A stretch of 64,000 bases of DNA from Candidimonas sp. (lineage in GTDB: Bacteria > Pseudomonadota > Gammaproteobacteria > Burkholderiales > Burkholderiaceae_B), in NCBI GenBank assembly GCA_004297945.1, contig SCRC01000046.1, positions 1-64,000 on the forward strand, given 5' to 3'. A program made the translations under genes and the position numbers. Under the pieces are notes generated by a model. That model was given only the letters and a program-made list of their open reading frames with translations. It had not been told where the DNA came from and searched no databases. Each line of letters opens with the position of its first letter. Position 1 is the first letter of the stretch. Positions 1,682-54,673 of the stretch are shown in pieces.

Positions 1682-1793
1682 GTAGCGCCACCCGTAGCGC
1701 CACCCGTAGCGCCACCCCTTGTGGGTGGCATCGGCGATCTATAAATGCCGCCTTGCTTCTCAACGATTTGGCAGCCACAAGGGCTGTCGCTAC
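1682..1793. repeat. REP-like cluster A (two head copies + full hairpin, then inverted copy)
   Basis: gtagcgccaccc at 1682 and 1694; hairpin gtagc-gccaccc-cttgt-gggtggc 1706-1729; inverted copy ggcagcc-acaag-ggctgtc-gctac 1770-1793. Confidence 0.9.
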
Positions 1794-4609: not shown

Positions 4610-4756
4610 GGCACCCGCAAAGGGTGCGGCTACATGATCAACGGTTTTGGCACCCACAAGAGGTGCGGCTACATGATCAACGGTTTTGGCACCCACAAGG
4701 GGTGCCGCTACATAGCGTACCGGGCGGTTTTTGTAGTGGCACCCCTTGTGGGTGCC
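4610..4756. repeat. REP-like cluster B (three inverted copies in 39-bp tandem + one forward copy)
   Basis: Minus copies 4610-4633, 4649-4672, 4688-4711; plus copy gtagtggcaccccttgtgggtgcc 4733-4756. Confidence 0.92.
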
Positions 4757-7217: not shown

Positions 7218-8738
7218 TCAAATGGGCTCGTCCAGACCGAATTGAACTTGTTCGGCAGCGCGCAGCACGGCGCGCGCCTTGGCTTCGGTTTCGAGCCATT
7301 CTTTTTCAGGATCGGAATCGGCCACAATGCCCGCAGCGGCCTGCACGTACAGCATGCCGTCCTTGATGATGCCGGTGCGTATGGCGATGGCCACATCCAT
7401 CTCGCCGCCGTAGCTCAGGTAACCCGCCGCTCCGCCATAAATACCGCGCCGGACGGGTTCGAGCTCGTCAATGATTTCCATTGCCCGCACCTTCGGGGCG
7501 CCGGTGAGCGTCCCTGCGGGGAAGGTGGCGCGCAGGACGTCCATATTGCTCATGCCCTCGTGCAGCGTTCCGCTTACATTGGAGACCAGGTGCATGACGT
7601 GCGAGTAGCGTTCGATGGCCATCGTGTCGGTTACCTTGACCGAGCCGGTCTGGGCGATGCGGCCCACGTCGTTGCGCGCGAGGTCTATCAGCATGACGTG
7701 CTCGGCGCGCTCTTTGGGATCGGCCAGCAGCTCTTGGGCGAGCAGGGCGTCTTCTTCGGGCGTGGCGCCGCGTTTGCGGGTGCCTGCAAGAGGGCGAATC
7801 GTCACTTCGCACTGTTTGCGATCTTCCTGGTTGACGATTTCCTGGCGTACCAGGATTTCGGGAGACGAGCCCACCACGTGGAAACTGTCGAAATCCCAGT
7901 AATACATATAGGGCGAGGGGTTCAGGGAGCGCAGGGACCGGTACAGCGACAGGGGGGAGTCGCGAAATGGTTTGGCAATGACTTGTCCGATCTGGACTTG
8001 CATCAGATCGCCGGCGGCAATGTATTCCTTGGCCTTTCGCACGGCCGCGATGTAGTCGTCTTTTTTGAAGTCGCGGCGAATATTGGTTTGCATGCTGGCA
8101 TAGGCATAAGGGATTACGACCGGCGTACGCAGCTTTTCACGCAGCTCCTTGAGGCGCCGTTTGGCCAGGGCGTAGCTTTCGGGCTGATGGGGATCCGCGT
8201 AGACGATCAGGTAGGTGTGCCCCGCCAGATTGTCGACGATGACGAGTTCGTCGATATGCAGCAGCATAATGTCCGGCGTGCCGCCTTCTTGTCCGGCGGG
8301 AAAGGGTTTGGTCGCGGGGCCCAGCCGGGGTTCCATATGGCGCACGGTGTCGTAGCCGAAATAGCCCGCCAGCCCGCCCGAAAAACGCGGCATTCCGGGC
8401 CGGATGGCTACCTTGAACCTCTTCTGGTAGCGCTCGATAAAATCCAGCGGATCGCCTTCATGGGTTTCCACCACTTCACCCTGGTGCAGCACTTTGGTAT
8501 GCGTGCCCGATGCGCTGATCACTGTCTTGGCCGGCAGGCCTATGAATGAATAGCGCCCGAAGCGTTCCCCGCCCACCACCGACTCCAGCAGGCAGCTATT
8601 GCGTCCGCCCTCGGGCCCGGCGTGTGCCAGCTTCAGATAGATCGCCAGCGGCGTGTCCAGATCGGCGTATGTCTCGGCGATGAGCGGGATTCGGTTGTAG
8701 CCCAGCGCGGCCAGTGCCTGGAATTCGATTTCTGTCAT
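7218..8738 (-). CDS. trpE: Anthranilate synthase component I
   Basis: Chorismate-binding fold: [50 protein letters not shown]. Confidence 0.96.
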
Positions 8739-9071: not shown

Positions 9072-9201
9072 GGCAGCCACAAGGGCTGCCGCTACATGAT
9101 TCACGGTCACGTTTTTGTAGCGGCAGCCCTTGTGGCTGCCATAATCGTTGGCAATCATGGCCATGTCTTGCATCGATGACAGGCACAAGGCCTGTCGCTA
9201 C
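9072..9201. repeat. REP-like cluster C (-,+,-)
   Basis: ggcagcc-acaag-ggctgcc-gctac 9072-9095; gtagc-ggcagcc-cttgt-ggctgcc 9117-9140; gacaggc-acaag-gcctgtc-gctac 9178-9201. Confidence 0.93.
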
Positions 9202-9210
9202 AGGGAGCCG

Positions 9211-9912
9211 TTACACCGAGATGGATTCGGCCTTGATGATTTCGCGGCGCATTGCCGCGATGACTGCCTTGTAATCGGCCTGGCCGAATATGGCGGAGCC
9301 GGCCACAAAGGTGTCCGCGCCTGCGGCGCGGATGGCGGCAATGTTGTCGACCTTGACCCCGCCATCAACCTCAAGGGCAATATCCTGGCCGCCGTTGTTG
9401 CACCAGGCGTCGATTTTTTGCCGCGCGTGGGCCAGCTTGTCCAGCGTTGCGGGGATGAAGTGTTGGCCGCCGAACCCGGGATTGACGGACATCAGCAACA
9501 CCACATCGAGCTTGTCCATGACGTAGTCCAGCCAGTTGAGCGGCGTAGCGGGGCTAAACACCAGCCCTGCCTTGCAACCATGCTCTTTGATTAGCGCCAG
9601 GGAGCGGTCAGGGTGGCGCGAGGCCTCGGGGTGAAAACTGATGATGTGGGCGCCGGCTTTGGCAAATTGCGGGATAATGGCGTCAACTGGCTCGACCATC
9701 AGATGTACGTCAATGGGCACCGTGGAGTACGGCCGTATGGCCTCGCATATCATGGGGCCCATCGTCAGGTTGGGAACAAAATGATTGTCCATGACGTCGA
9801 AGTGTATCCAGTCGGCGCCAGCAGCAACGACATTGCGAACTTCTTCACCCAAACGGGCGAAATCGGCAGCCAGAATGCTGGGTACGATGCGGGTGGTAGG
9901 CATGGGCGTCAA
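9211..9912 (-). CDS. rpe: Ribulose-phosphate 3-epimerase
   Basis: [17 protein letters not shown]...[17 protein letters not shown]...[14 protein letters not shown]. Confidence 0.96.
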
Positions 9913-29637: not shown

Positions 29638-30822
29638 TTGCTTGTTCTGGGCTTTTCCAGTGGGCTGCCGCTGGCGCTGACTACCGGGACCTTGCAGGCG
29701 TGGGCTACGGTGTCCAATGTCTCTTTGCAGGATATTGGTTTTCTCACGCTGATCGGTTCGGCCTATACCCTCAAGTTTCTTTGGTCGCCCCTGGTTGATC
29801 GCTACGCCCCTCCCGTGTTGGGGCGTCGGCGCAGCTGGATTTTCATGACGCAGATTCTGCTGGCGATGGCTATCGCCGGCATGGGTTTTTTTTCACCTTC
29901 CGGTAGTTTGGCAACGCTGGCAATGTTGGCGGTTGTGGTGGCGTTTTTATCAGCCACGCAGGATATTGCGTTCGATGCCTACAGCACCGATGTATTGCGC
30001 AAGCACGAGTTGGCGGCTGGCGCAGCGGTCAAGGTATTGGGCTATCGGATTGCCATGGTCGTATCTGGCGGCCTGGCGTTGATTCTTGCCGATCAGTGGC
30101 TGGGCTGGGGCGGCACCTACTTTCTGATGGGCGCGTTCATGGTGGTGTGCGCATGCGCCACGCTGCTTGCACCCGAGCCCGAAGTGGTCGCACGCACGCC
30201 TCGAACGCTGGGGTTGGCGGTCATGGAGCCGCTGGCCGAATTTTTCAAGCGGCGCGGCGCGATCACAATTTTGCTTTTGATTGTGCTGTACAAATTGGGC
30301 GATGCGTTTGCCGGAGCACTATCGACTACGTTCTTATTGCGGGGGGTGGGCTTTAGCGTGTCCGAGGTGGGGACCGTCAATAAAGTATTTGGGCTGATTG
30401 CCACGATTATCGGCGCCTTGCTGGGCGGCTCGTTAATGGCCCGCCTGGGGCTGTATCGTTCCCTGATGATGTTCGGCATCTTCCAGGCGGTTTCGAATTT
30501 TGCCTATTGGGTGCTGGCCGTGACGCCGCCTCATCTGTATTCGATGGCGGCGGCGGTGGCCATCGAGAACCTGTGCGGGGGTCTGGGTACGGCGGCCTTT
30601 GTAGCCTTGTTGATGGCGCTGTGCAATCAGGAGTTTTCCGCGACTCAATTCGCACTTTTGTCGGCGCTGTCGGCGGTGGGGCGTACCTATCTGGCCGGGC
30701 CATTGACTCCGCCGCTGGTCGAGCATCTGGGCTGGCCGGCTTTCTTCATGGCAACGGTGGCCATATCCATACCGGGCTTGCTGCTGCTTTGGTGGCGGCG
30801 TGCCGAGATCGAGAGTCTGTAG
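29638..30822 (+). CDS. ampG: Muropeptide transporter AmpG (MFS)
   Basis: LVLGFSSGLPLALTTGTLQAWATV; WSPLVDRYAPPVLGRRRSWI; start uncertain, coding similarity begins upstream near 29593. Confidence 0.88.
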   Translation: MLVLGFSSGLPLALTTGTLQAWATVSNVSLQDIGFLTLIGSAYTLKFLWSPLVDRYAPPVLGRRRSWIFMTQILLAMAIAGMGFFSPSGSLATLAMLAVVVAFLSATQDIAFDAYSTDVLRKHELAAGAAVKVLGYRIAMVVSGGLALILADQWLGWGGTYFLMGAFMVVCACATLLAPEPEVVARTPRTLGLAVMEPLAEFFKRRGAITILLLIVLYKLGDAFAGALSTTFLLRGVGFSVSEVGTVNKVFGLIATIIGALLGGSLMARLGLYRSLMMFGIFQAVSNFAYWVLAVTPPHLYSMAAAVAIENLCGGLGTAAFVALLMALCNQEFSATQFALLSALSAVGRTYLAGPLTPPLVEHLGWPAFFMATVAISIPGLLLLWWRRAEIESL

Positions 30823-30842
30823 CGCCGCCCCTTGTGGGCGGC
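30819..30842 (+). repeat. REP-like single copy D
   Basis: gtagc-gccgccc-cttgt-gggcggc; overlaps the ampG stop codon. Confidence 0.9.
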
Positions 30843-32173: not shown

Positions 32174-32258
32174 GTAGCGACAGGCCTTGTGCCTGTCATC
32201 GATGCAATAACCTGCGTCCGGTTTATTGATAAATGGCAGCCACAAGGGCTGCCGCTAC
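32174..32258. repeat. REP-like inverted pair E (+,-)
   Basis: gtagc-gacaggc-cttgt-gcctgtc 32174-32197; ggcagcc-acaag-ggctgcc-gctac 32235-32258. Confidence 0.93.
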
Positions 32259-33163: not shown

Positions 33164-33293
33164 GGCACCCACAAGGGGCGCCGCTACAAGCGACGGTATG
33201 TTTATGTAGCGGCACCCCTTGTGGGTGCCATCAACGTTTATAAATACCGTCTCGGTTGTCAACGATTTTGACAGCCACAAGGGCTGCCATTAC
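33164..33293. repeat. REP-like cluster F (-,+,-)
   Basis: ggcacccacaaggggcgccgctac 33164-33187; gtagcggcaccccttgtgggtgcc 33206-33229; gacagccacaagggctgccattac 33270-33293. Confidence 0.93.
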
Positions 33294-42659: not shown

Positions 42660-42760
42660 GTAGATCCACCCGTAGCGCCACCTGGTAGCGCCACCCTGTA
42701 GCGCCACCCTGTAGCGCCACCCTGTAGCGCCACCCTGTAGCGCCACCCCTTGTGGGTGGC
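42660..42760 (+). repeat. REP-like cluster G: tandem array of REP heads ending in a full hairpin
   Basis: gtagatccaccc then five gtagcgccacc(c)t(g) units at 42672, 42685, 42698, 42711, 42724, then gtagc-gccaccc-cttgt-gggtggc 42737-42760. Confidence 0.95.
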
Positions 42761-43089: not shown

Positions 43090-43185
43090 GTAGCGGCAGC
43101 CCTTGTGGCTGCCATTGCTGCCATTGATCGAGAGCCAAGGCGATATTTATAGAACACCGATGGCACCCACAAGGGGTGCCGCTAC
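43090..43185. repeat. REP-like inverted pair H (+,-)
   Basis: gtagc-ggcagcc-cttgt-ggctgcc 43090-43113; ggcaccc-acaag-gggtgcc-gctac 43162-43185. Confidence 0.93.
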
Positions 43186-54553: not shown

Positions 54554-54673
54554 GTAGCGGCGCCCCCTTTGTTGTAGCGGCAGCCCTGGTGGCTGCCATC
54601 CGGGCCGTCGAAAGTCAAGGCAGCAGGCGCACAGGCGGTTGGCTTATATGGCACCCACAAGGGGTGCCACTAC
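54554..54673. repeat. REP-like cluster I (truncated +, +, -)
   Basis: gtagcggcgccccctttgt 54554-54572; gtagc-ggcagcc-ctggt-ggctgcc 54574-54597; ggcaccc-acaag-gggtgcc-actac 54650-54673. Confidence 0.88.

Follow-up and report, generated by a model that had tools for sequence, protein, structure and literature searches.

Bacterial repetitive extragenic palindromes (REPs) include GTAG-tagged families, most of which, according to Di Nocera et al. 2013 (PMC3733652), comprise sub-families that carry alternative complementary residues in their stems. In group 3 TnpA-REP/REP pairs, GTAG and particular loop bases are needed and a stem mismatch abolishes cleavage, while many changes of the stem sequence are tolerated (Corneloup et al. 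2021, PMC8266576); the same paper describes the mechanisms of REP dissemination as "poorly understood". The title of Higgins et al. 1988 already asks whether REPs evolve by gene conversion, and Nunvar et al. 2013 (PMC3686654) reported RAYT/REP orthoswitches, in which REP variants are replaced within a lineage.

Here, we analysed the hairpins of a 64,000-nt window (the whole stretch of DNA under study), together with the assembly that contains it, called the source genome below, and the genome of a congener. Like the GTAG-tagged families of PMC3733652, including SMAG of Stenotrophomonas, these hairpins have a GTAG head, a perfect 7-bp stem and a short loop, and they likewise come in hundreds of copies, in inverted dimers, in sub-families with alternative stems and with a link to a RAYT. 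They differ from those families by their 5-nt CTTGT loop, a string that is absent from the main text of that paper, and by their Alcaligenaceae-type betaproteobacterial host, whose protein matches put it near Schauerella, Advenella and Pusillimonas. The REP family and its host appear new, and the kind of element is already known. Replacement of variants is common to the studies of Higgins et al. and Nunvar et al. and to ours; our data show it for individual copies at orthologous sites that align, where the two arms change together, and this is the most useful part of our analysis.

A REP family dense in two related genomes

The element is 24 nt long and consists of a GTAGC head, a 7-nt arm, a CTTGT loop and a complementary 7-nt arm. 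The window contains 20 matches to this motif, compared to 0.09 expected, and its hairpins are GTAG-tagged REP elements: GTAG stands at the end of the palindrome, a 7-bp paired stem carries a short loop, each genome has more than about 100 copies and inverted dimers have preferred spacings. Searching with the head-plus-loop pattern gave 576 exact copies in the source assembly (2.99 Mb and 83% complete; one of the two genomes compared is incomplete and in 125 contigs), spread equally over both strands (295 versus 281), and 932 exact copies in the congener, while the reversed control gave 0 in each. Among 201 genomes sampled from the family, dense repeats were confined to these two; two of the other 199 had one exact copy each, and no more.

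Stems were sampled from 769 kb of the source genome and 2.0 Mb of the congener. At least 224 of 234 source-genome copies and at least 406 of 417 congener copies carried GTAG, whatever the next base, and the loop was CTTGT in 17 of the 19 REP copies detected in the window, confirming that it is constant in nearly all copies. The loop variant CTCGT was present in 21 of the 234 and 26 of the 417 sampled copies, among them copies beside the RAYT candidate described below, in both species. A second GTAG-headed hairpin, GTAGGGGCGACC-C(T/C)TGT-GGTCGCC, occurs in a few copies in the congener (L155, L152, L259).

REP copies in the window

When the window copies were compared with open reading frames and named genes, they were found between genes or at gene ends. 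Three of them lie at positions 9072-9201, flanked by trpE (7218-8738, minus strand) and rpe (9211-9912, minus strand). The first (9072-9095, minus strand) has the stem GGCAGCC/GGCTGCC with the loop CTTGT and is the left half of a GTAG-inside dimer with a start-to-start distance of 45 nt; the orthologous congener copy has the same stem. The second (9117-9140, plus strand), again GGCAGCC/GGCTGCC, forms a GTAG-outside dimer with a start-to-start distance of 61 nt with the third (9178-9201, minus strand), whose stem GACAGGC/GCCTGTC is the same in the congener and whose end is separated from the stop codon of rpe by 9 nt. The first-pass annotation had assigned at least five classes to this interval. 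Three REPs are there, but they represent two classes only (GGCAGCC twice and GACAGGC once), and one has to look outside the interval for GGCACCC, GCCACCC and GCCGCCC; all the stems that had been named do occur in the window, each together with the 3' arm that matches it.

At the start of the window, a GCCACCC/GGGTGGC copy (1706-1729, plus strand) is preceded by tandem half-REPs, GTAGCGCCACCC, and a GACAGCC/GGCTGCC copy (1770-1793, minus strand) is a one-sided variant of GGCAGCC, which the congener retains. Two decayed copies on the minus strand, CGCACCC/GGGTGCC with the loop TTTGC (4610-4633) and CGCACCT/GGGTGCC (4649-4672), are followed by two GGCACCC/GGGTGCC copies, at 4688-4711 (minus strand) and, with the head GTAGT, at 4733-4756 (plus strand). 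The copy at 30819-30842 (plus strand) is the only one with the stem GCCGCCC/GGGCGGC in the sampled part of the source genome; the GTAG of this REP provides the TAG stop codon of an AmpG-like transporter gene (29638-30822). Another GTAG-outside dimer pairs GACAGGC/GCCTGTC (32174-32197, plus strand) with GGCAGCC/GGCTGCC (32235-32258, minus strand). Next come GGCGCCC/GGGTGCC with a G.T at pair 4 (33164-33187, minus strand), GGCACCC/GGGTGCC (33206-33229, plus strand) and a decayed copy with the head GTAAT (33270-33293, minus strand). The remaining copies are GCCACCC/GGGTGGC (42737-42760, plus strand), preceded by several tandem half-REPs (GTAGCGCCACCCT), GGCAGCC/GGCTGCC (43090-43113, plus strand), GGCACCC/GGGTGCC (43162-43185, minus strand), GGCAGCC/GGCTGCC with the loop CTGGT (54574-54597, plus strand) and GGCACCC/GGGTGCC with the head GTAGT (54650-54673, minus strand).

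The half-REP arrays, built of 12-13 nt units of GTAG plus 5' arm (GTAGCGCCACCC[T]), are found immediately upstream of REPs of the GCCACCC class (window 1682-1729 and 42684-42760), as if repeated copying had multiplied the head and the first arm. At L226:18556-18688, a tandem array whose 17-18 nt unit comprises the head, the 5' arm and the loop (GTAGCGGCACCTCTTGTT) runs into a complete REP.

Four whole-hairpin haplotypes underlie most of the covariation among copies

To avoid circularity, copies used for the pairing test were picked by an exact head and loop alone, leaving the arms unconstrained. Fully paired 7-bp stems were found in 136 of 179 such copies in the source genome and in 395 of 432 in the congener, and the other 24% and 9%, half-REPs among them, had incompletely paired stems despite a perfect head and loop. 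The proportion of paired cells was 0.962, compared to 0.823 when arms were re-dealt among copies and 0.26-0.41 when partners were slid. The same four stems, GGCAGCC, GGCACCC, GCCACCC and GACAGGC, dominate in both species, bearing out the earlier proposal that subfamilies coexist and have their head and loop in common. Four of the classes first listed are thus real, while GCCGCCC/GGGCGGC is a variant, with one copy in 769 kb of the source genome and none in 2.0 Mb of the congener.

Mutual information was highest for pairs 2, 5 and 6 (0.88, 0.86 and 0.38 bits), with at most 0.34 for unpaired column combinations. Compensation had been proposed at arm positions 2, 4 and 6, of which 2 and 6 hold and 4 does not, pair 4 varying only in the GCCGCCC copy and a few other rare copies; two-sided change was hardly ever seen at pairs 1, 3 and 7. 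Pairs 2, 5 and 6 are strongly linked (chi-square 1242): of about 12 haplotypes that would be feasible, no more than 4 are common, and combinations with 13-26 copies expected under free assortment were seen 0-4 times. When only distinct sequences were counted, 9 rows were fully paired versus 4.3 expected, which is a modest excess. Covariation among copies is thus mostly the inheritance of four whole-hairpin haplotypes and, with the copies being clonal descendants of about four hairpins, it does not by itself demonstrate structural selection. The view that structure is being kept stands as far as pairing is retained, but the argument that was first made for it, from covariation among copies, is weaker than it first appears.

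These counts could be read as the trace of founder clones only, that is of four ancestral hairpins that were amplified separately, with neither structural selection nor exchange: almost every paired copy belongs to one of the four classes, which the two species have in common, and distinct sequences add little covariation beyond them. We nevertheless regard this reading as quite improbable, since changes of class at orthologous sites with aligned flanks, as well as mixed classes within one spacer lineage, require replacement after insertion (see below).

Most differences between classes are swaps of C-G to G-C. Inversion of the hairpin between its arms was considered as a source of such swaps and ruled out: among the sampled copies of both genomes, no paired copy has the inverted loop ACAAG. 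Therefore, the orientation of the loop matters and the classes did not arise by arm-arm inversion.

Stem classes switch at matched sites

The source genome and the congener align at about 88% and, in the first aligned blocks, each of the 33 source-genome REP clusters had REPs at the matching congener position. Orthologous copies were identified by scoring their flanks against random pairs, with REPs masked. Among 22 copies supported by their flanks, a small sample, 11 had identical stems, 7 had switched with full pairing in both species and 4 showed a one-sided change. This corresponds to 15 changed pair columns, of which 11 were two-sided, compared to about 1.1 expected if the arms varied independently, and 4 were one-sided; leaving out two orthologous pairs whose matching is uncertain, 7 two-sided changes remained against 4 one-sided ones. 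Matched sites are stronger evidence than covariation among copies, and independent of it. At window position 4688, GGCACCC/GGGTGCC faces GGCAGCC/GGCTGCC at the aligned congener site, with two letters differing in an otherwise aligned hairpin. At 9117, the congener has GCCACCC/GGGTGGC in place of GGCAGCC, so that two pairs are changed on both sides and four letters differ, while the neighbouring REPs are unchanged. As for the question whether classes group by position or by strain, they do not do so strictly, since the two species share the same four and often carry different ones at corresponding sites.

One way to produce such sites would be stepwise compensatory point mutation at each of them, perhaps with hairpin-templated repair (quasipalindrome correction). 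A few intermediates fit this process, such as GGCACCC/GGGTGTC next to GACACCC/GGGTGTC, and so do rare paired haplotypes like GACACCC and GACAGCC. Yet C-G to G-C swaps offer no wobble intermediate, two pairs may switch at once, as at 9117, two-sided changes are very rare at pairs 1, 3 and 7 and the end product almost always belongs to the four strongly linked haplotypes, so that we consider the stepwise route unlikely. What is seen instead is a repeat that is replaced at a fixed site, between unchanged flanks, by a sequence found elsewhere in the genome, as gene conversion would have it. Since whole haplotypes are replaced at fixed sites, we infer that exchange takes place between copies. Separate re-insertion retains some plausibility as another source of the class switches at matched sites and, in clusters with several copies, an apparent replacement can arise when one copy is lost and another gained.

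Like REPINs (PMC3116915) and the BIMEs of E. coli, the REPs form inverted doublets of fixed spacing, with peaks at 45 nt for GTAG-inside dimers (18 and 76 pairs) and at about 60-65 nt for GTAG-outside dimers, and their spacers are conserved. Unlike in REPINs and BIMEs, doublet partners share their stem class about at chance (57 of 144 GTAG-inside doublets in the congener, versus 60.8 expected), and dimers of a single spacer lineage carry mixed stem classes. GTAG-outside dimers had the same end class in 59% of cases versus 30%, so class and spacer lineage are not independent. Class switching is thus frequent but not free, because the stem class depends on the spacer lineage of the dimer. The GTAG-outside spacers of both species (about 36-40 nt, for example in window 9117-9201 and 32174-32258) fall into three sequence families, and the GTAG-inside spacers into one main sequence family.

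Wobble variants do not point to RNA-level selection

A C:G pair that mutates towards T:A gives G.T and A.C equally if the change is neutral at the DNA level, whereas RNA or strand-specific selection would favour G.T. On the GTAG strand, one-sided variants comprised 21 G.T and 26 A.C (P = 0.56). This shows no sign of strand-specific selection after insertion, and pairing is therefore more likely kept through which hairpins get copied than through the upkeep of single copies. RNA-level upkeep of the pairing is unsupported, although these wobble counts leave room for RNA effects.

The hairpins might still act as RNA in 3'UTRs, as mRNA stabilisers, attenuators or terminators, with stems that covary through RNA selection at each site. 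Several window REPs do lie just past gene 3' ends, like the one that follows the rpe stop, and roles of this kind were proposed by Di Nocera et al. (PMC3733652), partly from G-T pairing. Besides the lack of a G.T excess and the equal occupation of both strands, a generic RNA hairpin needs neither a constant loop nor a constant head, and independent compensation in situ would not leave only four linked haplotypes; altogether, we find an RNA role of this kind very unlikely to explain the stems.

A RAYT candidate is flanked by REPs in both species

A search with PF01797 alone had suggested that the genus has no RAYT, a result that was overturned by matches to NF047646. The RAYT candidate has 204 aa in the source genome (G000 C68:5245-5856; L128) and 206 aa in the congener (G001 C4:280594-281208; L127). 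The two proteins match NF047646 with E = 3e-13 and 6.5e-15, at 49.9 and 55.3 bits; because these scores are below the curated cut-off of 80, we call this RAYT-like protein a candidate rather than a confirmed equivalog. Pfam scores were borderline (21.5 and 24.8, for a cut-off of 23), and a PDB sequence search with the candidate returned nothing meaningful. In an alignment to E. coli RayT (L279), the HUH residues H91/H93, Tyr186, Asn190 and the GTAG-contact residues W165, Q166 and R175 were all matched, the roles of the HUH motif, the catalytic Tyr, the essential Asn and the GTAG-contact W/Q/R residues being those given in PMC6006769; relative to E. coli RayT, the candidate carries additional residues that separate the HUH motif from the tyrosine region.

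The gene occupies the same chromosomal place in both species and has REPs on both sides in each. In both species, it lies between a hemL-like gene and a pair that resembles, by eye, a GNAT toxin and a DUF1778-type antitoxin. Among the 201 family genomes, it is present only in the source genome and the congener, so that gene and repeats co-occur in one genus only. We consider it very probable that the REPs serve as substrates for the RAYT candidate encoded in the same genome, a putative HUH tyrosine transposase that would act on DNA in single-stranded form. The structure-reading protein evoked in the first-pass annotation is thus likely to be a RAYT, considering the key residues and the REP-flanked gene in both species, while its other suggestion, an RNA hairpin in the 3'UTR, is unsupported by the wobble counts.

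Discussion

Taken together, these are REPs of four haplotypes with a paired stem whose class switches at shared sites, and our observations make it likely that the resident RAYT candidate reads them through head and loop and that they are spread and replaced as whole hairpins. According to this model, the RAYT would recognise a REP by its GTAG head and CTTGT loop. The stem would have to be perfectly paired, but most of its letters would go unread, such that any fully paired stem would be tolerated. Four stem haplotypes may have spread within such freedom. They would move as whole hairpins, both arms being replaced at shared sites while the flanks stay, and replacement would result from exchange between copies, either by gene conversion or by strand transfer through the RAYT, instead of stepwise compensatory mutation.

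A constant head and loop with a free but paired stem is what the rule described for group 3 TnpA-REP would leave. The system resembles the group 3 TnpA-REP/REP pairs of S. maltophilia and Marinomonas (PMC8266576) in its predicted reading of GTAG and loop, its perfect stem and its mostly free stem letters, and differs from them in that the candidate, a protein predicted from sequence, has about 205 aa and scores below the family cut-off. It is conceivable, though doubtful, that the RAYT itself swaps hairpins by precise single-strand exchange, with classes recombining as cassettes of 24 nt irrespective of the dimer in which they sit; if this were true, class switching would be an enzymatic feature instead of RecA-dependent gene conversion.

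The question that these repeats address is how REPs spread and stay uniform. Their fixed head and loop with a free paired stem provide support from natural variation for the recognition rules established in vitro for group 3 TnpA-REP. With about 1,000 copies, four readable stem classes and two alignable species, this genus makes replacement events directly countable, and it lets the old idea of gene conversion be tested against RAYT-driven exchange.
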